Of a stretch of DNA of 60,556 nucleotides, positions 926 to 25,907 are shown piece by piece. The notes beneath the pieces are model-generated. The model made no database searches and was not told the DNA's origin. It saw only the letters and a list, made by a program, of their open reading frames with translations. Numbering within the stretch: position 1 is the stretch's first letter; the number at the start of each line of letters is the position of its first letter. The stretch comes from Burkholderiales bacterium (GTDB lineage Bacteria > Pseudomonadota > Gammaproteobacteria > Burkholderiales > SG8-39). The translations under genes were made by a program, and so were the position numbers. Where the stretch lies: contig JAHDYJ010000015.1 of NCBI GenBank assembly GCA_023383795.1, positions 1 through 60,556 on the forward strand, read 5' to 3'.

Positions 926-4267
<3,342 letters not shown>

Positions 4268-4272
4268 GCGTG

Positions 4273-4611
4273 TCAATCCTCCCCGACTGCGGGCTTCAGC
4301 TGTGCGACGAGCGGCGGCAATGCGAGCTGCACCGTGTCCCAGAGAATGTCGCGGTTGATGTCGAAGTAGGCGTGGATCAGGCGGTTACGCATTCCGACGA
4401 TCTGTGCCCACGGCACTTTGGGCAGCTCGGCGCGCCCCGCCTCGCTCACCTGGCCCGCGGCTTCGCCAACGATCTCCACCGCGCGCGTCAGCGCGAGGCG
4501 CAGCATGGCGTCGCCATCCAGATCCGCGCGCACGCGCCCGGCAACGAACGCGAGCGCCTGCTCGGACGCCTCGATCATGTGGCAGATACGCCAGCGGTCA
4601 TCCGGCGACAT
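4273..4611 (-). CDS. hepT: HepT-type HEPN toxin (DUF86)
   Basis: This 112-residue all-helical HEPN protein matches HepT toxins in length and sequence. It carries the complete RX4HXY motif (RNRLIHAY) at residues 75-82. Known family members are RNases or tRNA-targeting toxins neutralised by MntA, which AMPylates the motif tyrosine. The start overlaps the end of the upstream MntA-containing gene by 14 nt, and the stop sits only 5 nt before the ATG of the DUF499 gene, so all three are probably translationally coupled. The cognate antitoxin domain is the C-terminal part of the upstream gene. Catalytic residues look intact, so an active toxin is expected. Confidence 0.88.
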   Translation of the reverse strand: MSPDDRWRICHMIEASEQALAFVAGRVRADLDGDAMLRLALTRAVEIVGEAAGQVSEAGRAELPKVPWAQIVGMRNRLIHAYFDINRDILWDTVQLALPPLVAQLKPAVGED

Positions 4612-5956
4612 ACTGCGGTTCCGCCGTGCGCACGACTTCGTCCCGGAAGTAGCGGCTCAAGTCCTGGGCGGTGCGCAGGTCCACCTTGCGCCCGCCGAGT
4701 AGCTTTGACAGGTCGATCTCCATCTGCGCAATGTCGAGCAGCGTCGGCCGCGCATCCGGAAAGAACTCCACCAGCAGGTCGATGTCGCTCTCCGGCCCCG
4801 CCGTCCCTTTGAGCTGCGAGCCGAAGAGCGAGAGGCGCCGGATGCGATGCCTCTCGCAGAATGGCTTCAGGGCGCGCCCGTCGAGATTGAACCGCCGGCT
4901 CACTGCTTCGCCCGTACCGGCCTGTCCCGCTCCCCCACCGGCGCTCGTCGCCACCACGCGGCGGATCATCTGATCAACGGCCGGCGCGGCATTGATCGGC
5001 ACGATCCGGATCTGCGGATGCGCGGCGGCGAAGACGCGGAACAGCTCGTCCGCGAATGCCTGCCCGATGTCGGAGATGCCGCCAAAGTCCAGCTCCACGC
5101 GCTTGAAGCGCTCGAAGCGGTGCGCCACGCGCTTCGCCTGCGAGCGCGAGACGAGCTTCTCGCCCTCGTACTGCGCGAGGCGGAGCGGCACCACGGTCCG
5201 GTCGAACGTGAGCTCCCCCGGATCGGTGTACGCGTCGAACACCCCGCGCAGCGTGCGCGCGCTGTCGCTGGCGAGGCGCATGCGCACGCGCGTGCCGGGC
5301 GTGTCCGCCGCCAGCTCGACTATCGAATCCTCGTCACGGGGTGCGTGGCGAAAGCGCAGCCGGTGCGACTCGATCTCGAAGACGTCCACCGCGCGCGAGG
5401 TGAAGAAGATGCCTTCGCCCGTGTGCCGATCCGGCGCGGTGGTCAGCTTGCCCTTGGCGAGCTCGAGAATCGCCTCGCGCGGGTGGTGCAGACCCAGCGC
5501 CCGCTGGATCTTGACGAAGATCCCCTCGCCCTCGTCGGCGACGAGTACCTCGACGTGGAGCGCATCGGTCCGCACCCCGACCAGCACTTCGGCCGCGCCC
5601 GAGTGGTCGATCGCGTTGTTGATCATCTCGGTGGCCGCGTAGTGCCAGATGTCGCGGACGTTCTGCGGCAGCCGCGCCACTACGGGGGCGACGAGCTCGC
5701 GCCAGACCAGGTCCTCCTGCAGCCCCGCGCACGGGTAGCGGCGCTCGACCTCGGCCAGGGTCTTAAGGCGGTACACCTTGGCGCGCGTCGTTCCTTCCGC
5801 TTCGACCAGGCCGTCGCGCGCGAGGGCCTGCAGGTAGCTATTGGCCACCTGCCGGGACACCCCGGCGACCTGGGCGAGCCGCGTGCCGACGCGGTGGCCG
5901 TCGGCTGCGATCAGCTCCAGCGCCCGGCGGCGAATTGAGCTCTTGTCAATATTCAC
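4598..5956 (-). CDS. HTH-GHKL ATPase-STAS(DUF4325)-MntA fusion regulator/antitoxin
   Basis: Four domains can be read in order. Residues 1-65 are a winged-helix DNA-binding domain. Residues 80-230 are a GHKL (HATPase_c) domain with an N box (EMINNAIDHS, 110-119), a G1 box (DEGEGI, 141-146) and a lid motif (HTGEGIFF). Residues 245-335 are a STAS-like DUF4325 domain. Residues 355-440 are an MNT nucleotidyltransferase with the exact GSX10DXD motif (GS at 379-380, D391, D393). The MNT part is the expected antitoxin of the overlapping hepT. MntA is normally about 100-150 residues and stands alone; here it is fused to an ATPase/STAS regulator. The start is GTG, with AAGAG just upstream. A promoter and a 10-bp inverted repeat precede it, which suggests autoregulation. 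Confidence 0.85.
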   Translation of the reverse strand: MNIDKSSIRRRALELIAADGHRVGTRLAQVAGVSRQVANSYLQALARDGLVEAEGTTRAKVYRLKTLAEVERRYPCAGLQEDLVWRELVAPVVARLPQNVRDIWHYAATEMINNAIDHSGAAEVLVGVRTDALHVEVLVADEGEGIFVKIQRALGLHHPREAILELAKGKLTTAPDRHTGEGIFFTSRAVDVFEIESHRLRFRHAPRDEDSIVELAADTPGTRVRMRLASDSARTLRGVFDAYTDPGELTFDRTVVPLRLAQYEGEKLVSRSQAKRVAHRFERFKRVELDFGGISDIGQAFADELFRVFAAAHPQIRIVPINAAPAVDQMIRRVVATSAGGGAGQAGTGEAVSRRFNLDGRALKPFCERHRIRRLSLFGSQLKGTAGPESDIDLLVEFFPDARPTLLDIAQMEIDLSKLLGGRKVDLRTAQDLSRYFRDEVVRTAEPQYVAG

Positions 5957-5963
5957 GGCTCTT

Positions 5964-5993
5964 ATTGTAATCGTCTAAACCAGGATTTGACAA
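5964..5993 (-). promoter_or_regulatory. predicted sigma70-type promoter of the HTH-MntA fusion gene
   Basis: Read on the minus strand, TTGTCA (5993-5988) and TACAAT (5969-5964) are separated by 18 nt. They end 7 nt before the GTG start, so the transcript would have almost no leader. The DNA here is notably AT-rich against its surroundings. The -35 hexamer lies inside the left arm of a perfect inverted repeat. Confidence 0.5.
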
Positions 5994-6017
5994 ACTAAAA
6001 CGCATCATTTGTCAAAT
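5985..6017. promoter_or_regulatory. 10-bp perfect inverted repeat, candidate operator
   Basis: The arms ATTTGACAAA (5985-5994) and TTTGTCAAAT (6008-6017) are exact inverse complements around a 13-bp spacer. The repeat covers the predicted -35 element of the fusion gene and ends 8 bp from the DUF1156 stop codon. The downstream gene starts with an HTH domain, so self-binding is the simplest reading. Confidence 0.55.
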
Positions 6018-6025
6018 TCCGCCGC

Positions 6026-9054
<3,029 letters not shown>

Positions 9055-9058
<4 letters not shown>

Positions 9059-9690
9059 GCGAAATGCGCCTCCAAGTACAGCAGGCTCCTCGCGTCCAAG
9101 TCCCGCCGGATCTCATCCAGCACACCCGGCGTCGGTGCATGCAAACGACGGTCGCCAATGAAGGACTCGAAATGCTCCTCGTAAAAGCGCGAGATGCTCC
9201 GCGAATAGAACTCGTGTGGATTGCACCGCTCTGATGAGAGGATCGAGATGGCTGGAACGATAGTCACCCCGGCACGCGCATACAGGAATACGAACGAATC
9301 GGGTGTCCGCGACAGCATCCGCTCGCATTGGGCCTTCATCCGCTCGAATTCGTCCTTCGACACCCACCCGCCGGGCTCAATTAGCTTCGCCTGCGCAAGA
9401 AATCCTTTCTTCACCGTGAATGCTGGAAGGTCGATCGAGAGCACGCCCATAAAGTCTGCGCCATGTTGGCGCTCCTGAGCATTAGGCCCTCGGTCTGTGA
9501 GTGTCTTGGCCGACCAGGAAATACCCTTCGCTTGGTAGTCGTGCATGGCTCCTTCAATAGCTCCGAGCATGCGATCTGTAAAAGCCGGTTCCTGCTCAAC
9601 CCTCCCCTCCCGCAGCGCGCCAGTTACGCGCTCCGCGGCACCGGCGACGCGTGCGGCCGCGTCCCGAACAATTCCAAACTCGCGAATCAC
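9055..9690 (-). CDS. candidate PD-(D/E)XK nuclease of the defence operon
   Basis: I do not recognise a named family, but the 211-residue protein carries a PD-(D/E)XK-like signature: HGAD (D79), then about 20 residues, then QAK (Q100, K102) at the end of a hydrophobic strand ([11 protein letters not shown]), with upstream acidic residues. A later segment ([16 protein letters not shown]) fits the next strands of such a fold. It has 4-nt overlaps on both sides, with the helicase upstream (GTG start at 9690) and the DUF1156 methylase downstream, so it is an integral operon member. Inference: it supplies or regulates DNA cleavage, or uses the nuclease-like fold for recognition. Gln in place of Glu is tolerated in some nucleases. 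Confidence 0.6.
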
Positions 9691-12600
9691 GTCGGGGCCT
9701 CGGCGCGCGCCAGGAGCTCGGCGAAGTCGTAGTTGACGCTTGTGACACCGAAGTCGGGTTCGCGGCGGAATGGCTGGCGCAGGTAGTGGACGCGGTGGCT
9801 GTCTTCACCCAGGAATTCTACGATCGCGAGGATGAAATCCTCCGGCTTGTTGAGCGAATACAGGATTTCGTTCTTGGTCACGGTTATCGTGGCCGCGCCG
9901 CTCGTTCGCCCTTTCACTTCCAGGAAGCGCAATTGCCCGGTACCCGGCACTCGCGACTCGATGTCGTAGCCGAGTTTCTCGGTCTCCCGGTCGGTCGGGT
10001 CGAACCCGAGCCGGCGCTCGATTTCCATCACGATCGTGCGTGCGCGCACGGCGGATGCCTGCGTGTCGACTGAGATATCGGACCCGGGGGCAGCGCTCCC
10101 AGTCATCTTAGCGATGAGACCCATCGGCACGACGACGAGTCCGCCCAGCACCGCGGGAGGAAGGGTGGAGAGTTTCGCCTCGGCGTCGAGTTCGGCCAGG
10201 CGCTTCTGGAGCCTCCCCTGCAGATCATCCGCCCGGCGCCGGGCCTCGCCGGAGTTGAGCCGCGCGCCCGCCCGCCCGGCCTGCTCCTGGAGCTTCAGCT
10301 GCTCGGCACGATGATCCCAGTAGGTGATCTCCTTGGTCAGCCGGTCCTTGACCGCGGCGCGGGTCTTCTCGATCCAGTCGAGTCGACGGCCGCGCACCTC
10401 GGCAATGTGTTCTGGCACCACGTTCGCAATCGCGTGCCCGAGCGCCTTCTGCTCCAGATCGCGCGTGATCCAGGCGCACTCAGGCCGAGCGAGGAGGTCA
10501 TCGACCCGGGGCTCGTCCTCGGCGAGCGGGCGATAGTCAAGGTACGGTGCATACTGCAGGTGGCGCGGTTGTCCTTCCTCATCGAGCTCGACGTAGAGCA
10601 TCCGCTTGCTGATCGTGCGCCGCTCGCCGGAGGCCAGCACCCGTGCGTCCTGGATGGTGTGCTCCAGGTAGAAGAGCACGCGCGGCCGGGTCCCGGGATC
10701 GCGCTCGTCCACCAGGACGGTGCCCCGCCGCAGGAGGTCGCGGTAACGCTCGAGCGTGAGGTCGAGCAGCGCATCGAGCAGCGGGTGGCCGGGGCACACG
10801 AAGGCGGCCATCGGCTGCCCCGGAGGCGTCAGCAGATCCTTCTCGAAGGCGACGCGCTCGTAGCGCTGCAGCACGGGGTCGCCCATGCCGATTGCGCGGT
10901 CGCGGTTCCGCACGGGGGCTGGCACGTGCGTCACCTCGTAGCGGCGCGGCTCGCGCTGCCGCGCCGTGCCGCCGAGCTGCTTGAACGCCTCCAGGAAGAA
11001 CGACTCGATGTAATGAGGCTGCAGGCGCCGAGCGTCGGCACGCTCCATCTCCCCGCGCACGCGCGCCACGCGGCTTGCGTCCATGGCGTCGTGGGCGAGC
11101 GCGCGCTCCTCGATCAGGTCCTCGAGATGGGTGCGGTCCACAGCATGAGCGATAGCCTGCGTCAGCCGCGCGCGCACCTCGGCCCGGTCGCCGTAGCGGA
11201 TCGCCTCGATGAGGAGCTCGCGCAGCGGCCGTCCCTCGAACTGCAGCTTGCCGAGGACGTCGAAGACCTGGCCGCCTAGCGCGTGGCGCGCCTGCTCGAG
11301 CTTCTCGAGCAGGGTACGGTACACGTCGCCCTCGCGCGTCTCTTCGGCCACCAGGTTCCACAGGTGGCAGACCTCGGTCTGGCCGATGCGGTGAATGCGC
11401 CCGAAGCGCTGCTCGAGGCGATTCGGGTTCCAGGGCAGGTCGTAGTTCACCATGAGGTGCGCCCGCTGCAGGTTGATGCCTTCGCCGGCGGCGTCGGTGG
11501 CGAGCAGCACCTGCACCTCGGGATCGTGCAGGAAGCTCTCCTGCGCCTTGCGCCGATCCTCGCGCCCCATGCCGCCGTGGATCAACACCACCGCCTGCGG
11601 GCGCCCGAGCAGCGAGCCGATCTGCCGCTCGAGGTAGTTCAACGTGTCGCGGTGCTCGGTGAAGAGCACGAGCTTTTGACGCGGCGACGGCTTGGGCGGC
11701 GGAATGGCGCCGGCGCCGTAGGGGACCGCGGGCTCCGCCACACGATAGCCGAGGCCCGCGGGCGTGAAGATCTCGCCGAGGAGATGAGAGAGCTCCCGCC
11801 ACTTGGTGTCCTGGCCGCTGCGGCGCACTTCCGCCGCCAGCGCTTCGAGCCGGGCGAGCGTGTCGATCTCGAGCTTCAGTTCCGCGATGGTGCTGGCGGC
11901 GGTGGCCTGGTCGAGCACCTCCTCTTCGGCGGCCTCGACCTCGTTCTCGGGCGCCTCTTCCAGGTCCTCGACGTCGTCGCTGTCGAGCACGGGCCCGGCC
12001 GCGAGGGCCGGCGCGGGAACCGCGGCGCCGCGCTGCAGGAGCTCGAGCTCGCGCAAGCGCTTCTCCAGCCGCTCGCGGCGGCGCCGCAGCGACTGGTAGA
12101 TCGCCTCTGGAGACGACGCGAGACGGCGCTGGAGGATGGTGAGCGCGAAGCCGACCGTGCCGGCGCGCTTGTCGTTCTGGAGCGCCTCGGCGCGGTTGAA
12201 TTCGTCCCGCACGTAATCAGTGACTTCCTTGTAGAGGCGAGCCTCCTGCTCCGAGAGCTTGTAGGGGACCGTGTAGGCGATGCGTTCCGGAAAGAGCGGC
12301 CGGCCGTCGAACTTGAGCAGGCTCTCCTTGACCATCCGGCGCATCAGGTCGGAGACGTCCACCTGGTGCACGCCATCGCGGAAACGGCCCTCGAAGCGGT
12401 CCCCGTCGAGCAGCGCGAGGAAGAGCTGGAAATCCTCCTCCTTGCCGTTGTGCGGCGTGGCGGTCATCAGCAGGAAGTGGCGGGTGAGGCCGGAGAGGAG
12501 CTGGCCGAGCCGGTAGCGCTTGGTGTACTTGACCTCGCCGCCGAAGAAGGTCGCCGACAGCTTGTGCGCCTCGTCGCAGACCACGAGGTCGTAACGGCAA

Positions 12601-13265
12601 TCGGGCGCTTCGAGCTTCGCCTGGACATCCTCGTTGCGCGAGAGCTTGTCGAGCCGCGCGATAGCGAGGTCGTTCTCCAAGAACCAGTTACCGGTGCGGG
12701 CCGCCTCGAGCTTGTCGTTGGTCAGGATCTCGAAGGGGAGATGGAACTTGCGGGAGAGCTCGTCCTGCCACTGCTCGACGAGGCTCCCCGGGCATACGAT
12801 CAGGCAACGCTTCAGGTCGCCGCGCGCGATGAGCTCCTTGACGAGCAGCCCCGCCATGATCGTCTTCCCGGCGCCGGGGTCATCAGCGAGGAGGAAGCGC
12901 AGCGGCTGGCGCGGCAGCATGGCCTCGTAGACCGCGGTGATCTGGTGCGGCAGCGGCTCGACGAGCGAGGTGTGCACCGCGAGCACGGGGTCGAAGAGGT
13001 GTGCCAGCCGGATGCGATGCGCCTCGGACACGAGGCGAAACAGCGCGCCGTCGCCGTCGAAGCTCCACGGCCGGCCCTGCTCCACGACCTCCAGCCGCGG
13101 CTCGTCGTGGCGGTACAGGATCTCCTCGGCGACGCGGCCATTGGGCGCCCGGTAGATGAGCGTGAGCGCATCGGAGCCGTGCCATTGCACACTGACGACG
13201 GCCACCGCACCGTCGGGGGCGAGCCCACGGACGGCGGCGTCGGGGCGGAGGTCCTCGAGTTTCAC
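9687..13265 (-). CDS. SNF2-type helicase with C-terminal DUF3883 domain (DrmD-like)
   Basis: This 1,192-residue superfamily 2 helicase has Walker A DDPGAGKT (128-135), DEAH box CDEAHKLS (230-237), motif III TATPHNG, motif V ATDAAGEGINLQ and motif VI QRFGRIHRIGQ. An acidic, helical insertion lies around residues 395-470. The C-terminus (about 1045-1160) has the DUF3883 signature, GYDIES followed by LEVKGR, which resembles a PD-(D/E)XK nuclease fold. The start is GTG. Gene order and domains resemble the SNF2 helicase of class 1 DISARM, but drmA, drmB and drmC are absent. Likely function: ATP-dependent DNA translocation or scanning in the methylase-linked defence system. It is the first gene of the overlapping three-gene block. 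Confidence 0.88.
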   Translation of the reverse strand: MKLEDLRPDAAVRGLAPDGAVAVVSVQWHGSDALTLIYRAPNGRVAEEILYRHDEPRLEVVEQGRPWSFDGDGALFRLVSEAHRIRLAHLFDPVLAVHTSLVEPLPHQITAVYEAMLPRQPLRFLLADDPGAGKTIMAGLLVKELIARGDLKRCLIVCPGSLVEQWQDELSRKFHLPFEILTNDKLEAARTGNWFLENDLAIARLDKLSRNEDVQAKLEAPDCRYDLVVCDEAHKLSATFFGGEVKYTKRYRLGQLLSGLTRHFLLMTATPHNGKEEDFQLFLALLDGDRFEGRFRDGVHQVDVSDLMRRMVKESLLKFDGRPLFPERIAYTVPYKLSEQEARLYKEVTDYVRDEFNRAEALQNDKRAGTVGFALTILQRRLASSPEAIYQSLRRRRERLEKRLRELELLQRGAAVPAPALAAGPVLDSDDVEDLEEAPENEVEAAEEEVLDQATAASTIAELKLEIDTLARLEALAAEVRRSGQDTKWRELSHLLGEIFTPAGLGYRVAEPAVPYGAGAIPPPKPSPRQKLVLFTEHRDTLNYLERQIGSLLGRPQAVVLIHGGMGREDRRKAQESFLHDPEVQVLLATDAAGEGINLQRAHLMVNYDLPWNPNRLEQRFGRIHRIGQTEVCHLWNLVAEETREGDVYRTLLEKLEQARHALGGQVFDVLGKLQFEGRPLRELLIEAIRYGDRAEVRARLTQAIAHAVDRTHLEDLIEERALAHDAMDASRVARVRGEMERADARRLQPHYIESFFLEAFKQLGGTARQREPRRYEVTHVPAPVRNRDRAIGMGDPVLQRYERVAFEKDLLTPPGQPMAAFVCPGHPLLDALLDLTLERYRDLLRRGTVLVDERDPGTRPRVLFYLEHTIQDARVLASGERRTISKRMLYVELDEEGQPRHLQYAPYLDYRPLAEDEPRVDDLLARPECAWITRDLEQKALGHAIANVVPEHIAEVRGRRLDWIEKTRAAVKDRLTKEITYWDHRAEQLKLQEQAGRAGARLNSGEARRRADDLQGRLQKRLAELDAEAKLSTLPPAVLGGLVVVPMGLIAKMTGSAAPGSDISVDTQASAVRARTIVMEIERRLGFDPTDRETEKLGYDIESRVPGTGQLRFLEVKGRTSGAATITVTKNEILYSLNKPEDFILAIVEFLGEDSHRVHYLRQPFRREPDFGVTSVNYDFAELLARAEAPT

Positions 13266-13437: not shown

Positions 13438-14292
13438 CTACGCGGTTAACGTTCTGAGGCGGCCCTCGACAGCCTTGGTGAGCAGATCCAAGCCTTCACT
13501 ATTCGGCAGATACGACACGTATCGCAGATGCCGCAGGTCAAACGGAATATCATCGGCTGCGCGCGTAATCAAAATGACGTCCTTCCCCAGCGAATGGGCT
13601 ATGCCAATCTCGTAGAACACATTCGGGTTTCTCCCCGAACAGTCGCAGATCACCACCTTCGCCTTCGCAATCAGATCCACGATGTCCTGAATGACGTGGT
13701 GATGAATCCAAATATCGTCCGCCCGAACGCATCGGAGGTTTAAGCCTTTTGCAGCGACCCGAAGCGCATTCAGCACAGGATCAAACTCCCTACCGAATGG
13801 CATCATTACTGAGACGAGATCCTCCTCCTGATCCTGGATGCCGGCAGTCGAGAACACGGTTGCTCCCCCTGGCTTCGCAACTGCTGCGTTGTCTTGCTGG
13901 ATTAGCAGGAGCACACGGAACAGATCGGCGTCGCATACCCGCCAATGCGTGTGGGTAAGCATGGTCTTGGTAATACCGAGCTGGCCGGCAAAGTCTTCGA
14001 GAGCGCTATTCGCAACCCCAGGTATGGTGGTATCGACCAGGTATCGAATGGTTGTATCGCGGGCGTTCTGGGTAAGCCCGTTGATATACGCTACACGCGC
14101 TTTCTGCGACCCGGTACCGGTGGTTTCGCTCACCAATAGGGCCGGTACCATGCTCACCTTGGCAGTGTCGAGCTTTCCAGCGGTCAGCATTTCACTTCCG
14201 GGACGCTCGTCCGCTTTGATGTAAATCCGACCCGTCGGGATCGTGTCAGCGCCTTCTTTCCAGCCGTTGTAGGACACCAGCAAGTGGAACAT
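13438..14292 (-). CDS. two-part protein with C-terminal nucleoside-deoxyribosyltransferase/TIR-like domain
   Basis: Residues 1-150 match nothing I know. Residues 160-275 are a Rossmann-like domain of the nucleoside 2-deoxyribosyltransferase/TIR-like group. It has MMPFG (163-167), CVRADDIW (188-195), CDCSGRNPNVFYEIGIAHS (216-234, with E228 at the usual catalytic position), GKDVILITR, and IPFDLRHLRYVSY. Members of this group often sit in defence loci and are suspected or known to hydrolyse NAD+ or nucleosides. The protein is 284 residues, stands 172 bp upstream of the helicase operon and 33 bp downstream of the NERD helicase. An effector role is inferred; substrate is unknown. The N-terminal half may be the sensor. 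Confidence 0.65.
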   Translation of the reverse strand: MFHLLVSYNGWKEGADTIPTGRIYIKADERPGSEMLTAGKLDTAKVSMVPALLVSETTGTGSQKARVAYINGLTQNARDTTIRYLVDTTIPGVANSALEDFAGQLGITKTMLTHTHWRVCDADLFRVLLLIQQDNAAVAKPGGATVFSTAGIQDQEEDLVSVMMPFGREFDPVLNALRVAAKGLNLRCVRADDIWIHHHVIQDIVDLIAKAKVVICDCSGRNPNVFYEIGIAHSLGKDVILITRAADDIPFDLRHLRYVSYLPNSEGLDLLTKAVEGRLRTLTA

Positions 14293-14325: not shown

Positions 14326-16248
14326 TCACAGAGAGGCGCGCGTTCCGGCGAGTTGCGCTTCTGGAATGGGCACAAACCCCACTTCGACCTTCGCACGCTC
14401 TCGCGCCAGCGCAAGCCGCTCGGCGAACTCCGTCTTACGGTGGCAGGTCATGACGAGCTCGTCCATGGCCCGTGTCATCGCGACGTAGAGGAGGCGCGCC
14501 TGGTCCTTGGCATCTTCGCGCTCGTGGGGCATGAAGCCGATACCGGGGATGGCGACGAGCGGGAACTCGAGGCCCTTGGCTGCGTGCATGGTCATGACCT
14601 TGACCGAGTCCTCGCCTGGCCGGTAGTTGCGGCTTCGCTTGCTCTCGTTCAGCCACTCGACCGGGATGCCTGCTGCCCGCAGGCTGCGGGTGACTTCCTC
14701 GCCCATGAAGCCTGCGCGGTAGACGACGCCCATGTCGCGCCAGGCGCGGCCGCGGGCGTGCGATTCCTTCAAGCGGTTCGCGATGTAGTTCGCTTCGCTC
14801 TTGAGGTTCGAGAGGTGGACGAACTCGGGGACAGGGCCGTGGCGGCCGGCGCTCGTGGGGGCGACGAGCGGAATGCCGTCCTCGCCCGCTTCCTCGGGGG
14901 TGAGCACCTCGCGGGCGAACTCGTAGGCGACCGCGAGCACCTCGTTCGTGTTGCGGTAGTTGAGCTTGAGGATCGTGGTGCGGCCCTGCGCCTGGATGCC
15001 GACGCTCGCGAGGCTGAACTTGCGGCGCTGCTGTCGGCCGTAGATCGACTGGGCGTCGTCGTAGAGCAGCAGAAAGGCATTCGTGTCCGGATCGACCATC
15101 TGCACGACGAGCTGCAGCCACTCGGGCTGGAAGTCGTGCCCTTCGTCGATCAGCACCGCGCCGTACTGGGCGCGGGGGATCTGGCCGCGCTCGACCGCGT
15201 CGATCACGCGCGCGACGAGCGCTTCGACGAAGGCTTCCGCCCCGCCCTTTTCCGCGGGCGGCGGCAGCGCGACGTGGTAGAGCTTGAGCTGGTCCATGCA
15301 CCAGCCGTGGAAGTGGCGCACGGTCACTTGCTGGTCGAGGCCCTTGGCCTGGATCACGTGGCGGAGCTTGGCGGCGAGCGCGACGTTGTAGCAGAGGACG
15401 AGGATCGGCTTCTGTGTGAGGTGCGCGAGCTGCTCGGCGCGGTAGCCGAGGATGAGCGTCTTGCCCGAGCCCGCGACGCCATGGATGACGCGGTGCCCTT
15501 CGCCGAGGCTGCGGGCGAGCTGCTCCTGTTGGAGGTCCATCACGCGCACGAGATCGGGGGCGAGGTCGGAGACGGTCGCTTCGCTGGCGGGCGGCTCGCC
15601 TTCGAGGGTGAGCGCGCCTTGCTGGATGCGGATCTCCGGGAAGAGGTGCCAGCGGATGCGCTCGACCTGCGGCAGTGTGAGCAGGCGCTGGAACGGCGCG
15701 GAGTGCATGCGCCAGAGCTTTTGCTGGAAGGCGGCGGGATCGACCGATTCGGCCATCTCGTCCTGGCAGATCACGCGCTCGGGGTCGAGGACGTCGTCGA
15801 GGTCGGTCGCCTCGAACTGCTTGCACGTGATGTTCGTGAGCACCACGCCGTAGCCGTAGGGGACGGCGAGCTTGCCCTGGTGCGGGCCGTCGGCGACCTG
15901 GAGCGCGGGGTCGCGCTCGAGGAGCGCCTTGACGGCAAAGGCGTACTGGCGCGCCTGCTCGAGCGGGTTGGCGGCGTGCGTGAGGCCGCGGTCGGTCGCG
16001 AGCTCGAAGGCGGCGCGGTCGGCCTTGCGGATGGTGTCGAGGCGCCAGTCCTTCACTTCCAGCACGAGGAGGCCGCGGCCCGGGTGCAGCACGACGAAGT
16101 CGGGGTGCAGGTGCTTGGGGCCGACCGGCACGTCGTACCAGCAGAGGTAGTCGTCCTCGAGCTTCGCCTCGAGGCGCTGGGCGAGGCGGCGCTCGCCGGG
16201 GGTCATCCGGCGCGCGCAGCTACCGAGCGATGGGATCAGCGTCGCCAT
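14326..16248 (-). CDS. NERD nuclease-related domain fused to UvrD/Rep-type helicase
   Basis: The 640-residue protein begins with a NERD domain (residues 15-130) that has the nuclease-like pattern HPDFVV (D50) and LVLEVKDW (E64, K66). A superfamily 1 helicase follows, with Walker A GVAGSGKT near residue 260, Walker B VLIDEGHDFQPEW, motif IV-like LNYRNTNEV and the C-terminal block VKVMTMHAAKGLEFPLV. I start it at the ATG at 16248, which has GAGAGGG about 9 nt upstream; the longer frame adds 36 unlikely residues. Nuclease-helicase combinations of this type occur in phage defence loci, including the Nhi type by analogy. It is probably the first gene of the minus-strand island, though it may be an independent defence unit. 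Confidence 0.8.
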   Translation of the reverse strand: MATLIPSLGSCARRMTPGERRLAQRLEAKLEDDYLCWYDVPVGPKHLHPDFVVLHPGRGLLVLEVKDWRLDTIRKADRAAFELATDRGLTHAANPLEQARQYAFAVKALLERDPALQVADGPHQGKLAVPYGYGVVLTNITCKQFEATDLDDVLDPERVICQDEMAESVDPAAFQQKLWRMHSAPFQRLLTLPQVERIRWHLFPEIRIQQGALTLEGEPPASEATVSDLAPDLVRVMDLQQEQLARSLGEGHRVIHGVAGSGKTLILGYRAEQLAHLTQKPILVLCYNVALAAKLRHVIQAKGLDQQVTVRHFHGWCMDQLKLYHVALPPPAEKGGAEAFVEALVARVIDAVERGQIPRAQYGAVLIDEGHDFQPEWLQLVVQMVDPDTNAFLLLYDDAQSIYGRQQRRKFSLASVGIQAQGRTTILKLNYRNTNEVLAVAYEFAREVLTPEEAGEDGIPLVAPTSAGRHGPVPEFVHLSNLKSEANYIANRLKESHARGRAWRDMGVVYRAGFMGEEVTRSLRAAGIPVEWLNESKRSRNYRPGEDSVKVMTMHAAKGLEFPLVAIPGIGFMPHEREDAKDQARLLYVAMTRAMDELVMTCHRKTEFAERLALARERAKVEVGFVPIPEAQLAGTRASL

Positions 16249-16553
16249 GCATGGTGGCCCTCTCGTTTTGGGTCTGGGCCGTTGCGGTGGCGGGATTATG
16301 CAGGAGGCGGCGTTGCCGCGGGGCGGGAAATCGGGCGGGGGTGTGGCAAGCTGCACGGTGGGCGGGCTTCGCGCGCGGGTGGCTGCTCTTGAACTGCACA
16401 GGCGGGTCTCGGCCCCCGAATCGGCTCACGGGCTGAGCCTGCACCGCCCGCAGACTCGGACGCTGCAGCCCACGCACGTGGGCGAACGCCAGGCATCGCC
16501 TCCTCCGAGCAGAATCACCTTGTCGCTATAGTACCGTTTACGTTACCATTTGC

Positions 16554-17278: not shown

Positions 17279-17773
17279 CTAGTGAAGTTTCGGCAACTTT
17301 TGACCTAGGACAGAGGCGACGGCTTGAGCACCCAATAGACCGTCTCTTGGGAGGCTAGCTACCGCATGTGCGTCCGCTTCCGTCTCTGACACGACCCTAG
17401 AAGGGTCATCGTCGGCATACACGACTCTCAGCAGTCTTCCGGATACAAGCTGCTCGCGAACAAATGCCGGGTTCGGCCATGCCTCTTTGCGCCATTCAGG
17501 CAAACGTCCGACTATTGACCAGGTACCATCTATGAGGCCGAGATCTCCGAAACGGCACACGTGGACGGCGTCGTTTGCGGTTGCCGAAGCTACCTGGTCG
17601 ATACTTGGAATCGAGGCTCGCCGGGAGCCGAAGAAGTAGCCCAAGAGAACGCCCTTGCCGGCTTGCCGACTCGCGCGAGCGATTATCCCGATTGCGTAAC
17701 CGCCGTCCGGCAGCGGAAGCGCGAGTATGTCTCCCTCTCCGTAGCCGCGTGCCCTTTTCGTTTTTGTCGTCAT
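17279..17773 (-). CDS. Imm26-type immunity protein (orphan)
   Basis: The 164-residue protein opens with the Imm26 hallmark GDILALPLPDGGYAIGII, typical of immunity proteins to polymorphic toxins. The middle has VCRFGDLGLIDGTWSIVGRLP. It is less GC-rich than the surrounding genes, as is common for immunity genes. It lies on the same strand as, and downstream of, the RHS toxin locus, with ComJ and Imm33-type genes between. No toxin tip matching it is visible, so it looks like an orphan kept in an immunity bank. The start is ATG with a weak ribosome-binding site. Confidence 0.65.
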   Translation of the reverse strand: MTTKTKRARGYGEGDILALPLPDGGYAIGIIARASRQAGKGVLLGYFFGSRRASIPSIDQVASATANDAVHVCRFGDLGLIDGTWSIVGRLPEWRKEAWPNPAFVREQLVSGRLLRVVYADDDPSRVVSETEADAHAVASLPRDGLLGAQAVASVLGQKLPKLH

Positions 17774-18010: not shown

Positions 18011-18496
18011 TCAACCTGGTGCGGGCTGCGCAGTCGTCAGCAATGGCGTACTTACGGACAGCGCCTCATCCGCGCGCACAACCGCGAACCGAGGGACATC
18101 ACTCTTAGCAAAGATAAGCCTGACGCGTTGCCCGTCATCGACACCAAGGCCAAGGAATTCGCAGCGCAAGAGGAAGCGACCCGGCGGGAGGGTCACCGCG
18201 GTCGAATCTGAAATACTTCCCACTTCGACTGCACCATTCGCCGGGACTTCAAATGGCACTTCTATTGCGCGCACGGCGTCCTTACTCGCGGAGCCGGTAT
18301 GTTCAACGACTTCGATCTCAACCGAGTGAGGTCCCGCCTCGGCTAGCGTTCGGAAGGACACGGTTCCCGGTCGCCATGAGAAACCCTGTGCGACATGCTG
18401 GTCGGTCCAGTCATTGAAAGGTTGGTCGAGCGCGCTCGGAAAGACCGCAAGCTGACTATAGGAAACGTCGACCGCGACCGCCGATGGCATGGTCAT
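18011..18496 (-). CDS. comJ: ComJ-family nuclease inhibitor/immunity protein
   Basis: The N-terminus (VSYSQLAVFPSALDQPFNDW, then TDQHVAQGFSWRPGTVSF) is the ComJ signature. ComJ in Bacillus inhibits the competence nuclease NucA, and relatives serve as immunity proteins to nuclease toxins. The product has 161 residues. Its ATG overlaps by 4 nt (ATGA) the stop of an upstream reading frame cut by an IS3 element, which implies translational coupling to a lost partner, probably the cognate toxin. It lies in the immunity-gene bank behind the RHS gene. Confidence 0.7.
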   Translation of the reverse strand: MTMPSAVAVDVSYSQLAVFPSALDQPFNDWTDQHVAQGFSWRPGTVSFRTLAEAGPHSVEIEVVEHTGSASKDAVRAIEVPFEVPANGAVEVGSISDSTAVTLPPGRFLLRCEFLGLGVDDGQRVRLIFAKSDVPRFAVVRADEALSVSTPLLTTAQPAPG

Positions 18497-20065: not shown

Positions 20066-20416
20066 TTACACGTTCAGGAGGCTCTCATCGAACCAAACGT
20101 CTTCATACTCACCTGCTATCAGAAAACGCCACCCTGGCGGGAGCCCCAGATACTTCTTCACCTGGGGACACCACTCATCTAGGTGCTCAATATGAAGTGG
20201 AACAAAGAAGTCGGGGGAAGCAGACAACTCTTCTCCCGCCCAGATGAACCATCCAGTCGTGTCCCCTTTTGGAGGATGGCGCAACCCATTAATAGGCAAT
20301 AGCCCAGTTCGGACGTTCTCCGCTATGCCGATCTTCTGATTCAACGGGGCGGGATAATAATCCGCGCCAAAGCGAAGGCACGTTCGACGCTGATCTTCCT
20401 CCACGGCTCTACTCAT
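20066..20416 (-). CDS. Imm33/DUF2185-type immunity protein, partner of the RHS toxin
   Basis: The 116-residue protein ends in a conserved block ([42 protein letters not shown]) that I match to the Imm33 (formerly DUF2185) immunity family. Its ATG overlaps the TGA of the RHS gene by one base, or a GTG at 20419 overlaps by four. Synthesis is thus coupled to that of the toxin. It is the cognate immunity protein by position. Its base composition is less GC-rich than the RHS shell, like the toxin tip. Confidence in the coupling is high; the family name is from memory of the motif. Confidence 0.72.
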
Positions 20417-23400
20417 CACAGTCCAAGTTCTCTTCTCTTTTCGCGGGAATATCGGGCCATGTCAGCTCCCTCGCGCGCCGAACATGTCGGGCACTCAGGT
20501 TGCACAGAATCAAGTCTTCGCATGCGCTCCGTGTTGATAGACCCTGTCTCATAATATTCTTTGACAAGCGGTTCTCTGTGTCCCGCCACTTGGTGTGAGG
20601 TCTCAGCCCCGCATTTTACGCACGGCTTGCCTTGTACCGATGCTCGTTGGGCCGACGTTGTCGCGCCCGAGGGCCGTTTGTACGGAGCGGTGACCTCGAT
20701 GTTCGTACCAACTCTCTGAGGAACGCAATTTCTCGCGACGGTCGCACGGGCAAGCGCCGGCGCGAGGCTTGCCGCAGGACTGAGAAGGCCGAGCAGCGCA
20801 CCCGCAGTGGCATCGTCGATGACTTGGTGGCCGTCGATTTGACCCGTAAGCGCATATTGCACGGCCGCGCTTGTGAGTCCTCCCGCAAGCGCGCCAACTG
20901 CAAGTCGGGTTCCAACAAGTCCTACGTAGGCTCCCGCCTGCAACCCGTAATGGTCCCGGAGTAGGAGCGGCTTGGATTCGGCGTACGTGTAAGTGTCGAG
21001 ACCGCCGTCGAGCCCAATCGGATCACTCTGTACATACCTTCCAACCGCCGGATCGTAGTCCCGGAAGTAGTTCTGATGTAGCCCCGTCTCGGCATCGAAG
21101 TACTGCCCCGGGAACCGGAGGTTGAGGGTGACGTTGGTCCCGTCTCCGTCCGGGTCCTCGTCGGGCGCGTAGCGCCCGAAGGGATCGGAGTCCCACTTCC
21201 AGACCACGCGGTTCTGCCCGTCGGTGAGCCGGCGCGGGGTGTCGAGGTGGTCCGGGTGGATATAGTAGACCTTGGCTTCGGTCGGGGTCGTCGCGCTGCC
21301 CGCCGCGTCGTCGCAGACGACGTTGCCCGCGGTGACGTGGAAGTCGAGCTTGTTGCCGCGCGGCGGGTAGCCGCCCCTGAAGATGAAGGTCACCGTGCCG
21401 TCGACCGTGTAGCCGTCGCGCAGCGACTCGCCGGCGAAGATGCGCGCGTTGCGCGAGAAGGTGTTGTCGCCTGCGGTCTGCAGGGTCTCGCCGACGGGCT
21501 CGCCGTCGATGTCGGTGAGCTCGACCCGGATGAGGTTGCCCGCGCCGATGTCCTCGGCCGAGCGCACGACGAAGCGCAGCGCGTTGCCGACGTCCATGCC
21601 GCCCGACCAGCGCAGCGTGAAGAGCTCGGCCGCGCCGTCGCGCACCGTGACCTGTGCGTTGCCCGCCCCGTCGTAGGCGAGCCGGAAGGCGTAGGGCTTG
21701 CCCGAGACCCAGTCGAGGTCCTCGCGCGCCGAGCCCTCGAAGTCGCGCGTATTCTCGCCGAGCCCCCATTCCCAGCCGCGCTCGCCCGGGCGGCCGCTGT
21801 GCACTTCCATGCGCTCGCGCCGCTCGAAGGGCGTGAAGCCCCCGGGCGGACGAAGCCGCGGTGCCGCGGGACAGCTGCTCGCCGGCGCGGCGGCGGCGAT
21901 CATCGCTACCGGCGTGTCGCCGAGCCAGATGTACTCGCGCTCGATGCGCCCCGCGCCGTCGCTCTCGGCGATGAGCCTGCCGCCGGCGTCATAGTGGTAG
22001 TGGGTGTTGCGCGCGCTAGCGAGCTTCGCCACGCGCTGTCCCAGGGCGTTCAGGCGATACTCGGTGACCGTCGCGCCGACCGCGGCGCGCACCATGCGCC
22101 CTCGCGCGTCGTAGGCGAAGCTCGGTCCCGCCGAGGAGGACACGAGGCTTCCCGCAGCGTCGTAGCCGAAGGTGGACGGGCTCGGCCCGGCCACCGCAAG
22201 CAGGCGGTTGGAGGCCGGATCTACGGTGTAGGCGTAGCTCGTGCCGCCGAGCGTGAGCGAAGTGCGGTTGCCGGTGGCGTCGTAGGCGTAACCCTGGCTC
22301 GTGGTGCCCTGAACCCAGCTCGCGAGGCGGTCGAGGGCGTCGTAGCCGTAGACGGCGTCGTTTGCCGGGTTCCCCGGGTCGGCGATGCCGATGATGCGCG
22401 AGGCCGCGTCGAAGGTCAGCGTGCGCGAATCCGCGCCGAGCGTGTACGCAGCGATGCGCCCATCGGCGTCGATGGTGCGCACGTGGCTCGCGAGACTGCC
22501 GTAGGTAAAGCGCTGCAGGCCGCCGAACGGGAAGTAGCCGGCGTCCTGCGCCAGCACCTGGCTTCCGCCCTCACCCGAGGTCTCGATGCGGGCGATCCGC
22601 CCGAGCGCATCGCGCCCGTAGGTGATCACCCGGCCCGAGGGGTAGGTCACCGCGGCGAGCCGTCCGGCCGGGTCGTAGCCGTAGGCGGTAACGTAGGCGA
22701 TTCCCGCGATCGTGCGGGTCTCCTGGGTGAGCCGGCCGTGCGCATCGTAGGCAAAGGCGGTCGTGCCCGAGCTGTCCGTGATGCTCGTGAGCCGGCCGGC
22801 GCTGTTCGCGCCCGCGTCGTAGCCGAAGGTCTCCACCTGGCCGTCGGAGTAGGCGATGCGGGTCACGCGGCCGAGCGCGTCGTACGTGTAAGTCGCGCTC
22901 GTTCCGTTGGCGTTCGTGCGCGTGAGCACGTTGCCGGAGGCGTCGAAGGTGCGCGCGGTCGCGCCCGCGTCCGGGCCTTGCTCGGCGGTGAGATCGCCGA
23001 GCGCGCTTCGCTCATAGCCGGTCGCGAGGCCGCGCGGGTCGGTCACCGCGCGCAGCTGATCGAGCGCGTCATAGCCCAGGCGCGTCGCCCCGCCCGCCGG
23101 ATCGATCATGGCGACGAGCCGGCCGAGCGCGTCGTAGCTCCGCCGGTGCTCGCGCCCGAGGGGATCGGTGATCGAGGTGAGGTTCGCCTCGCCGTCGTAG
23201 TCGTAGATGGTCGTGTGGCCGAATGCGCTCGTCGATTGCGCGAGGCGGTTGAGCGTGTTGTAGAGGTGCGCGCGCGTCTGCGCGAGCGTGCCCGAGGCGT
23301 CGAAGGCCTCCTCCCGGAGGCGGTTCCCCATCGCGTCGAGCGTGTACTCGATGCGGTTGCCCAGGTTGTCGGCGACGCGCACGAGCCGCTGCGCGTCGTC

Positions 23401-25512
23401 GTAGGCGTAGTCGAGGTAGCTCCCGTCGGGCAGCGTCACGCGCGCGAGCTGCCCGGCGGCGTCGTAGGCGTAGGTGGTGGTCTCCGTGCCCGTTTGGCGG
23501 GTGACGAGCCGCCGGCGCGCATCGTAGACGAGCGTGGTGGCAAGGCCGTTGGGGTCGACGATCCGGGTCGGCTGGCCGTGGGCGTCATAGGCCGCGATCT
23601 CGGTCACGTGCCCGGCGGCGTTGGTGATGCGCCGGAGATTGCCGCGCCTGCCGCGGTCGGGATCGTCGTCGGCGTAGTAGTCGTAGGTCGTGACGTCCGC
23701 GACGTCGGTGCGCGGGCCGTCGGCCGCGAGCACCCGGCCGAGGGCGTCATAGGCGTAGGTCCAGGTGCGGGCCGCGCCGCTGCCAGTGTCGCGCACCGCG
23801 TAAGTGATCGGGTTCCCCGCGGCGTCGTAGGCGAGCGTGGTCTCGCGCCCGGGCGCGGCGATGCGCGTGGGCAGGCGAAAACTCGGGTGCCACTCGGTGG
23901 CGATGATGCGTGCCTCGCCGGTGCCCACGGCCTCGGTGCGCGCGGTCTCGAGATCGGTGCGGCCGTGGGGATCCTCGCGCACGAACGTGGTCCGGTGGCC
24001 GTTCCAGTCGGTGAGCGCGGCGATCTGGCCGGTGGCCGGATCGAGCGTCTGCACGGCCGGACCGTAATCGGGCGCCGGCGTGCCGGAAACCTCGGTCGTC
24101 TTCGGCACGCCGAAGAGCGTGGCGAAGCTCCGGGCGCGCGAGGCGCCGAGCGCATCGGTGACGGTCGCGGCGCCCTCGGCGTAGCTCAGCTCGACGCGCT
24201 CCGCGCCGCCGGCGTGCTCGGTCAGGACGGCGCGGCCCTCGCCGTCGTAAGCGTAGGTGGCTAGGCGCACGCCGCGCTCGTCGGTGATACCGGTGAGCGC
24301 CGAGGCGAACGAGAAGCCGCTTCCCGGCACGGGCGGGCCGGTGAGCCCGTAGTGGTACTGGCGCGTGCGCCCGTCCGGGTAGGTCACGCCGACGAGGTTC
24401 CCGGTGTCCGCGTGATAGGCGTACTGGTAGACCCCGCCCGCCGGATCAACCATGGTCGCTACGCGGCCGAGCGCATCGTAGATGAAGGCAAGCGCGCGCC
24501 CGCCCGGGTCGATCACGCGCGCAAGCAGCGCGCCGTAGTTCGGGTGCGCGGCGTACTCGAGCGTGAGTGCCGCGCCCGCCCGGTTCGCGATCGAGGCAAG
24601 CCGCCCCTCGGCATCGTAGGTTTCGACGTAGTCGGTTTCGGCGACGCGGTAGCGCCAGCCGGTCGGCGCGCCGGCGGTGTCGAACAGGCGCTCGAGCCGG
24701 TCGGCGACGTCGGGCTCGGGCACCCAGTCCACGCCGCTGCGCGCGAAGCGGTGCATCACCCCGTCGGGCCGGTAGGCGAGCGCCTGGTCGAGCGCGTCGT
24801 CGAGGACCACGCGCGCGTCGAAGCTGTGCCGCCAGCGCCGGCCGATGGTCGTGTCCGGAACGAGGCCCAGACTGTTGTAGCGGCGCGCGAAGACGAGCGG
24901 CAGGATGCCGGCGCCCACGTAGTCGACCTCCTCCTGCACCTTGTTGCCGTTGCCCGGGTTGATCGGGTTGCCGGGGAAGCACATGGTGTCCCGCTCGCGG
25001 CCGGCGGCCTTCGTCTCGGAGACCGCGCGCGCACTCACCGCCACGCCCACGATCGGATAGCCGTACGCCGGCCAGATGGACGGATCGGCGCATGCGATGG
25101 TCGGGTCGGCCTTCCTGTACACGGGCGAGGCCCGGATGGTGCAGGTGGGTTGGGTGCTGAGCACCTGCACACTGCCGGGACACACCGCGTCCGCGCCATA
25201 GGTCGCGGAGTAGTGGCTGTACACGCGAATGTTGTCGCGCTCGATGTCGGCGGCATAGGTGCTGCAGGCGGCGCCGCGCGTGCTGCTCATGTACGGATAC
25301 AACGGCGTCATGTCGCCGTAGCCCTGGACGTTGGCGATCCAGAGCGTCGCTTGCGCGCAGGCGGCGTTCGCGGCGAGAACCGCGAGGCACGCGAGCGACG
25401 CGCAAGCGGCGTGACGCGCGAATGCACGCGCCTGGAATGATGAGACGGTTGCCCTCTGCCGGCACCGCCGCAGCGGTGCGGAGCCGATGCCTCGGCGTGC
25501 GCGCGCGACCAT
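20416..25512 (-). CDS. secreted RHS-repeat polymorphic toxin with Cys/His nuclease-like tip
   Basis: The 1,698-residue product has a signal-like hydrophobic stretch ([18 protein letters not shown]). It then has a DUF6531-type motif ([20 protein letters not shown]), dozens of RHS/YD repeats (YDALGR, YDAAG and similar), and the RHS core end [13 protein letters not shown]...LLLRDHYG. The last 175 residues (20416-20943) are a variable tip with a hydrophobic Gly/Ala segment and then a [15 protein letters not shown]...CPTC region, a zinc-binding HNH-like arrangement. RHS shells encapsulate the tip toxin for contact-dependent competition. I use the ATG at 25512, preceded by GGGAGGGG; an in-frame ATG at 25551 also exists. 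The cognate Imm33-type gene overlaps its stop. Confidence 0.88.
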
Positions 25513-25907
25513 CATCCCCTCCCTGCCGCAACAGGGCGCCGCCGGCTGCATCGCGCACGGCGTGCGCCACCGATCGGCCGCGAGCGCATGCCCGGGCCAT
25601 CAACGTCTGAGTACGGTTAACGCCTTGCGAGGTGTTGTGGTCGTTATCGCGGCGTCGGCAACACGCTAGCGCTGCGCCGTGCTTTTCGCAAGCGGTCGGG
25701 GGTAGGCCGAACGGCCGATGCGCGTGCGCGGGCGCGCGCTGTGACAAGGTTGTAACAGTTGGCGCGGAGCGAATGTGTGGACGAAGGCGTCTCGGCTCGA
25801 AGCGCACGCTGGTCGAAGGCTGAAGCGCACGCGATACGCCTGCGACGGCGCGCTCGGTCCGCCTCGCAGGTCCCGCGGCGCGAGGCAGGGCTCCTCCGGC
25901 CGGCGGG
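25513..25907. other. upstream region of the RHS gene
   Basis: About 395 bp lie between the RHS start and the vapC stop. I see no gene or RNA. The AT-richer patch around 25600-25690 is a reasonable place for the RHS promoter, but I cannot pick out convincing -35/-10 elements. Confidence 0.35.

Follow-up and report, generated by a model that had tools for sequence, protein, structure and literature searches.

What does a small nuclease-like protein do when its gene is locked between the helicase and the methylase genes of a defence operon? This question is raised by the gene at positions 9055 to 9690 (minus strand) of the window, as we call the whole analysed stretch of 60,556 nucleotides from a Burkholderiales bacterium. 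The first-pass annotation had described a 211-residue protein with GAD and then QAK at PD-(D/E)XK spacing and with 4-nt gene overlaps to both neighbours, and had proposed it as the dedicated cleavage subunit of a system whose nuclease was otherwise unclear apart from a DUF3883 tail. The descriptive part is confirmed in the sequence: the gene starts with a GTG codon, and its product of 211 amino acids carries GAD at residues 77-79 and QAK at residues 100-102, Q100 following D79 by 21 residues. The stop of the helicase gene and the GTG start share the four nucleotides GTGA; the stop of the small gene and the ATG of the methylase gene share ATGA.

The surrounding operon (926-13265, all on the minus strand) has the order hmaA, small gene, hmaB, a HATPase-type gene and hmaC. 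HmaA (9687..13265; PADLOC HmaA, 1697.6 bits) is an SNF2 helicase with the Pfam domains Helicase_C, SNF2-rel_dom and NOV_C, the last corresponding to a C-terminal DUF3883/NOV_C domain of PD-(D/E)XK type. HmaB (6026..9058; PADLOC HmaB, 1580.2 bits; Pfam DUF1156) is a DUF1156 adenine methyltransferase and HmaC (926..4276; PADLOC HmaC, 1175.5 bits; Pfam HEPN_Swt1 and DUF499) a Swt1-type HEPN fused to a DUF499 AAA+ ATPase. With all three proteins encoded in one operon, the locus is by its profile matches an Hma system (PMC8565338), the same kind that is named Type-1 BREX-related (BR) in PMC12839542. Two genes upstream of hmaA, both on the minus strand, suggest that the operon lies in a defence island: one (13438-14292) encodes a 284-aa protein that weakly matches TIR effectors (E 6.1e-9), the other (14326-16356) a NERD+UvrD protein with a match to PADLOC C3a187 (705 bits). 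The minus strand between 17279 and 25551 encodes a 1711-aa RHS-repeat protein (20416-25551), then a ComJ-like (18011-18496) and an Imm26-like protein (17279-17773), which suggests an RHS toxin accompanied by immunity genes.

The small gene is real and under purifying selection. Homologues of 211-214 aa were found at the same hmaA-hmaB position in three further loci (L003, L004 and L005); they are 76, 64 and 53% identical to the window protein, and their assemblies are titled Myxococcales, Chthonomonadales and Terriglobia. These names represent three phyla. Overlaps of 4 nt with the form NTGA occur at all eight gene junctions of the window and these three loci. In the four of six pairs for which dS could be estimated, dN/dS ranged from 0.11 to 0.14, with dS saturated (> 2) in three; the sound pair, formed by the window and L003, gave 0.11 to 0.13 at a dS of 1.2-1.3. 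Homologues in the same place with the same overlaps, low dN/dS and invariant residues (see below) are therefore beyond chance. The alignment of the HmaB of the Chthonomonadales locus (L004:10642-14286) with that of the window is split in two by about 580 nt, which might reflect a part that was replaced or enlarged.

Sequence searches placed the small protein in no known family. The window protein has no Pfam, NCBIfam, PADLOC or PHROGs family, and phmmer found no match to it in the PDB. When twelve homologues were included, Pfam gave nothing above its curated cut-offs, the best E value being 0.0073 (DUF7552) for the homologue of L010. The sole PDB match of a profile of 14 homologues was 7bpl, a 110-aa chain named NF1 (E 0.052), which was taken as chance. 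Two AlphaFold2 models, built on shallow and overlapping and hence not independent alignments of 5 and 6 rows, reached mean pLDDT values of 78.6 and 80.5. Both predicted models show the alpha-beta-beta-beta-alpha-beta core of the PD-(D/E)XK superfamily, with a helix at residues 34-48, strands at 57-63, 80-87 and 91-103, a second helix at 112-128 and strands at 132-138 and 141-146.

In VIA-align, the first model matched RecU (2fco; Z 9.7, rmsd 3.2, 129 aligned residues) and Hjc (2eo0; Z 9.3, rmsd 3.3, 124 aligned), and the second model matched 2eo0 (Z 9.5, rmsd 3.6, 123 aligned) and 2fco (Z 9.3, rmsd 3.5, 130 aligned). All RecU and Hjc rows had Z values of 9.7-8.1 in the first and 9.5-8.3 in the second model, and these nuclease scores lie only 1-3 above the best Z of 7-8 that is typical in the absence of a true relative. 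SPARDA and several restriction enzymes rank below them. The top match of both models, above any nuclease, was the human Rab effector Rep15 (8a4a_A), with Z 11.6, rmsd 3.6 and 160 aligned residues in the first model and Z 11.5 in the second. Rep15 was earlier reported to resemble Hjc 2EO0 (PMC9308819), so that the list of structural matches is consistent. It aligns over nearly the whole small protein, and its ancestor may have been a nuclease in which the N-terminal helices were arranged in the same way. Foldseek returned just two rows at E <= 0.001, both of Rep15, followed by MspJI (8.9e-3) and Hjc (2.6e-2), and against the viral models of BFVD none at E <= 0.001, the best row being a phage RecU (1.7e-3). 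That a family does not appear among the structural matches is no argument against it. Since the structural rows agree on one superfamily, we consider the assignment persuasive despite the modest margin in Z, and the models support a PD-(D/E)XK fold resembling that of the Hjc and RecU nucleases.

The second line of evidence is conservation. An alignment of 14 sequences (A4), in which the other members are 17-76% identical to the first, has seven invariant columns among 211: E73, G77, D79, Q100, K102, Q121 and G179. All three residues that the first-pass annotation had named for its motif, D79, Q100 and K102, belong to this set in 14 of 14 homologues, for which we calculated a chance probability of 2.3e-5, a rough value as the homologues were picked by similarity. 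The three residues are also present in a copy on a virus contig (L070), which was found later and sits in alignment A5 alone. E34 is kept in 13 of the 14 sequences because the start of the L009 protein, which was nevertheless retained, does not align; L009 has a separate upstream frame with a weak profile match (E 0.0052). Left out of the alignment were a 15.6-bit match in G178 (L002), rejected as a homologue, a match in a 578-aa frame of G314 (26.7 bits), the second match in G546 (25.6 bits), the shorter copy L038, and L019-L021, which represent the same match as L018. PD-(D/E)XK enzymes characteristically combine a conserved acidic residue in one strand of the core with a (D/E/Q)xK motif in the strand that follows, and both are present here. 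In the candidate active site, E34 would be contributed by the first helix, D79 by the beginning of strand 80-87 and Q100-x-K102 by strand 91-103; Q121 and E73 would assist. Thus, the two checks suggested in the first-pass annotation, predicted fold and conservation of D79, Q100 and K102, both support the earlier PD-(D/E)XK reading.

A different picture was obtained for the second part of the earlier proposal. That the nuclease of the system is otherwise unclear does not hold, as the DUF3883 tail of HmaA is already described in print: the DUF3883 domain fused to the SNF2 helicase of such operons was recognized as a REase domain in 2013 (PMC3710099), fusions of the helicase to a PD-(D/E)XK or PLD nuclease were reported in 2020 (PMC7641849), and the C-terminal REase was presented as the active, primary effector of BR systems (PMC12839542). 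In the window this nuclease motif is intact in the motif alignment (GYDI...FLEVKGR), and all 12 HmaA proteins aligned, including the four that are accompanied by the small gene, retain the D...EVK motif. The idea that the small nuclease substitutes for a lost HmaA nuclease was rejected on these grounds.

Furthermore, a close relative of the operon does without the small gene. An Hma system on a Meiothermus plasmid (L048) has a 34-nt gap between hmaA and hmaB. Its identity to the window, compared with that of the carrier L005, is 79 versus 77% for HmaA, 69 versus 72% for HmaB and 76 versus 70% for HmaC. In the HmaA tree the four carriers form one clade with a support of 1.0 and L048 lies outside, the joining node having a support of 0.386; the HmaC tree groups L048 with the window and L004. 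Because this branching is unsure, either a loss of the small gene or recombination is possible for L048.

The comparison of Hma loci revealed exchangeable contents at the hmaA-hmaB junction, which acts like a cargo slot. Our table of 45 rows, minus 5 repeats and 11 rows without a downstream hmaB in reach, comprises 29 distinct loci; for plasmids, 20 of 57 records found were examined, chosen for spread. The spacing between the two genes is 502-5598 nt in 20 of these loci and 8-165 nt in the remaining nine. The small nuclease occupies the junction in 4 of 29, namely in the window and in the three loci found with the small protein as query, and in none of the other 25, which had been found with HmaA. 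The general presence expected of a core Hma subunit is therefore not seen for the small protein. Elsewhere the junction holds NYN proteins (L051, by the HEC-09 profile; L026, by the NYN Pfam family; and L027, whose protein has the same N-terminus as that of L026), HEC-08/DUF3644 (L024), PtuA and PtuB of Septu (L057), proteins like AriA and AriB of PARIS with moderate scores of 90 and 74 bits (L050:6549-8925, a Gloeocapsa plasmid), an annotated Fic protein (L063) or a multi-gene set including a sacsin/HATPase protein (L054). At eight wide junctions (L028, L034, L049, L052, L055, L059, L060 and L062) no content or gene was identified. In L022, PtuA adjoins hmaA and hmaB is out of reach.

The gap between hmaB and hmaC of the window contains a further gene (4598..5956, minus strand), whose 452-aa product combines HATPase, DUF4325 and nucleotidyltransferase parts with a weak HTH-like start and a PDC-S09-like tail (E 7.4e-23). 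No tblastn match to it was obtained at E <= 1e-5 in L003, L004, L005 or L048, and it is probably a second cargo of the operon. The corresponding gap of L004 encodes two proteins, one of 391 aa that was read as an AAA-type ATPase and one of 202 aa; in L003 and L005 the gap is too short for any gene. In view of these differing contents, the hmaB-hmaC junction may be a second cargo slot.

The small nuclease family also occurs outside Hma, and it is rare per genome. A search of 274 genomes with the single protein yielded the window and one rejected match. With tblastn, 5 of 72,556 plasmid records matched at E <= 1, and a later search added L038. Profile searches (A1, E <= 0.001) were positive in 3 of 398, 2 of 195, 3 of 247 and 1 of 151 genomes, each count including the seed genome; a weak match in G314 from the first of these searches was dropped. 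Of 5426 E. coli genomes, three carry the prophage version L018 with an identity of at least 99%. Both of these copies that were examined lie at the prophage end, after tail-fibre and invertase genes and beside a protein kinase gene. The copy on virus contig L070 stands beside genes read from their translations as AIPR, Dcm, Vsr and HNH, and another copy outside Hma adjoins a gene read as an OLD-like ATPase. Among 50,697 phage records no match was found with the window protein (E <= 1) or that of L018 (E <= 0.01). Scans of viral contigs detected relatives with L006 and L007 as queries, and none with the window protein, L010, L008, P0002 or A2. In L015 (8372-8851) and L044 (841-1458), the copy follows a gene for 159 or 205 aa with a 4-nt overlap or a 3-nt gap; the start of this gene's product appears membrane-bound by eye, and it is a possible partner.

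Profiles of HmaA and HmaB matched in all four genomes with an embedded copy. At E <= 1e-100, they matched in none of the nine holders of a copy outside Hma, which comprise four whole genomes (with completeness stated only for G546) and five plasmid records without their host chromosomes. On this sequence evidence, the family is very likely independent of Hma. Its members thus lie between hma genes and also outside Hma, as in the Hma-embedded class. Taken together, the intact HmaA motif, the close L048 system without the gene, the exchangeable slot and the copies outside Hma speak against the dedicated cleavage subunit proposed in the first-pass annotation, and the small protein is probably not such a subunit.

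We therefore favour, with a probability of about two in three, the reading that the small PD-(D/E)XK nuclease is an auxiliary effector. A member of a mobile, defence-associated family would have been acquired at the hmaA-hmaB junction by one Hma clade, represented by four genomes, and would be co-translated there with helicase and methylase; coupled expression with Hma is suggested by the 4-nt overlaps. Judged from the models and the conserved residues, the protein very probably cuts nucleic acid, for which it would use a divalent metal. The target would most likely be invading DNA, with the small nuclease as a second line beside the DUF3883 nuclease of HmaA. We infer the nuclease activity, the DNA substrate, the role in defence and the independence from HmaABC. 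A more specific and rather tentative version defines a family of about 200 residues, Hjc-like and with the pattern E...E-x5-D-x20-QxK...Q, as stand-alone anti-phage or anti-plasmid effector, which in one Hma clade would have become translationally coupled as a second nuclease, finishing off the DNA that HmaA has opened. In this version the carriers are placed on prophages, plasmids and islands, and the Hma clade is regarded as widely transferred.

However, the exact overlaps and the single HmaA clade would also fit a real subunit, and the auxiliary reading has to accept that the best structural match, Rep15, is not a nuclease and that our sequence searches linked the small protein to no known nuclease family. 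The small protein could accordingly be a genuine subunit of this Hma clade, an obligate second nuclease working with HmaA, for example on branched or nicked DNA made by the helicase. The NTGA overlaps at 8 of 8 junctions and the Hjc-like fold agree with this, as does the one well-supported clade of carriers, whose four genomes include three with the titles Myxococcales, Chthonomonadales and Terriglobia, a distribution which implies that the arrangement travelled as a unit. We nevertheless regard an obligate subunit as unlikely, since the HmaA nuclease motif is intact, the Meiothermus plasmid system lacks the gene while being 79% (HmaA) and 76% (HmaC) identical to the window, homologues exist without HmaA and HmaB at E <= 1e-100, and the contents of the slot exchange.

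Two further explanations concern the target and the activity itself. A nuclease of this fold might act on host nucleic acid, perhaps RNA, in a toxin-like manner or by abortive infection, with its neighbours restraining it. Copies at prophage cargo positions and beside genes read as Abi-type, the NYN and DUF3644/HEC-08 proteins among the other slot contents and the possible membrane-bound partner before the L015 and L044 copies would be in line with this; yet no recurring partner gene was seen by eye among the plasmid copies, and among solved nucleases those nearest in structure act on DNA junctions, so that we consider a host target improbable. Even less can be said for a non-catalytic PD-(D/E)XK-fold protein that binds DNA or serves as a sensor, by analogy to the protein-binding Rep15. 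It is true that Rep15, itself reported to be Hjc-like (PMC9308819), heads both structural lists, but conservation in the family peaks at the predicted catalytic positions (E73, D79, Q100 and K102 in 14 of 14 sequences, E34 in 13 of 14), which makes a loss of catalysis very improbable. The auxiliary nuclease thus remains our preferred reading: with related proteins occurring without Hma on plasmids and in prophages, an add-on weapon is more likely than Hma's own cutter.

The small protein defines a concrete, predicted nuclease family that is not covered by the annotation libraries searched, and its gene adds a further, tightly coupled example of cargo in the slot between hmaA and hmaB. If the copies outside Hma protect against phages, other uncharacterized Hma-embedded genes would gain weight as candidates. 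A requirement of Hma for the coupled copy, on the other hand, would illustrate how a passenger turns into a subunit.

A comparison with known proteins and systems helps to delimit the family. Rep15, the human Rab15 effector, has the highest structural score and aligns with residues 3-181; it is a eukaryotic protein-binding protein with 12% identity in the structural alignment, and the resemblance is no evidence of a shared function. The closest solved nuclease folds are the Holliday junction resolvases Hjc of archaea and RecU of Gram-positive bacteria, which correspond to residues of about 30-180. Compared with these, the small protein is 7-15% identical in structural alignments, has an extra N-terminal helix and gives no sequence-profile match, and it carries Q where Hjc has E in the (D/E)xK position. 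The DUF3883/NOV_C domain of HmaA is likewise a REase domain, with a D...EVK motif (PMC3710099). However, NOV_C is a part of the helicase protein and has EVK, whereas here a separate small protein with QxK is encoded. Among the defence profiles, none of 5027 PADLOC 2.0.0 models matched any of 15 family members (the 14 aligned and L070) at E < 0.01, the best value being 0.015 to PDC-S14. The QAK region of the L043 homologue (1492-2163) weakly matches PDC-S14 profiles (E 0.015 and 0.022), and PDC-S14 may contain a related core.

At the level of systems, the window resembles Hma and Type-1 BR with its HmaA, HmaB and HEPN-DUF499 HmaC (PADLOC profiles). The core is described as consisting of three genes only (PMC8565338, PMC12839542); the operon of the window has the small gene and the HATPase-type gene in addition. 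Type-1 BR loci were reported to contain or adjoin PD-(D/E)XK and other nucleases, which also occur next to the helicase-nuclease fusion (PMC12839542). Hma-embedded candidates (HEC; PADLOC) go back to a 2024 preprint of Payne et al., as cited in PMC12988326; the embedding of Septu in Hma and such candidates are in print (PMC12255303, PMC12988326, PMC10855318), and antiviral activity was tested for some embedded genes (PMC12988326, PMC12255303). In the literature searched, to which supplements and preprints did not belong, no paper naming the small nuclease family was found, and it has no model in Pfam or PADLOC (window protein and homologues) or in NCBIfam and PHROGs (window protein). Hma embedding is hence a kind already known, while the small nuclease family is not represented in the libraries searched. 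Like the HEC genes, the small gene sits between hma genes, in the very slot that holds HEC-08 in L024, HEC-09 in L051 and a NYN protein in L026.
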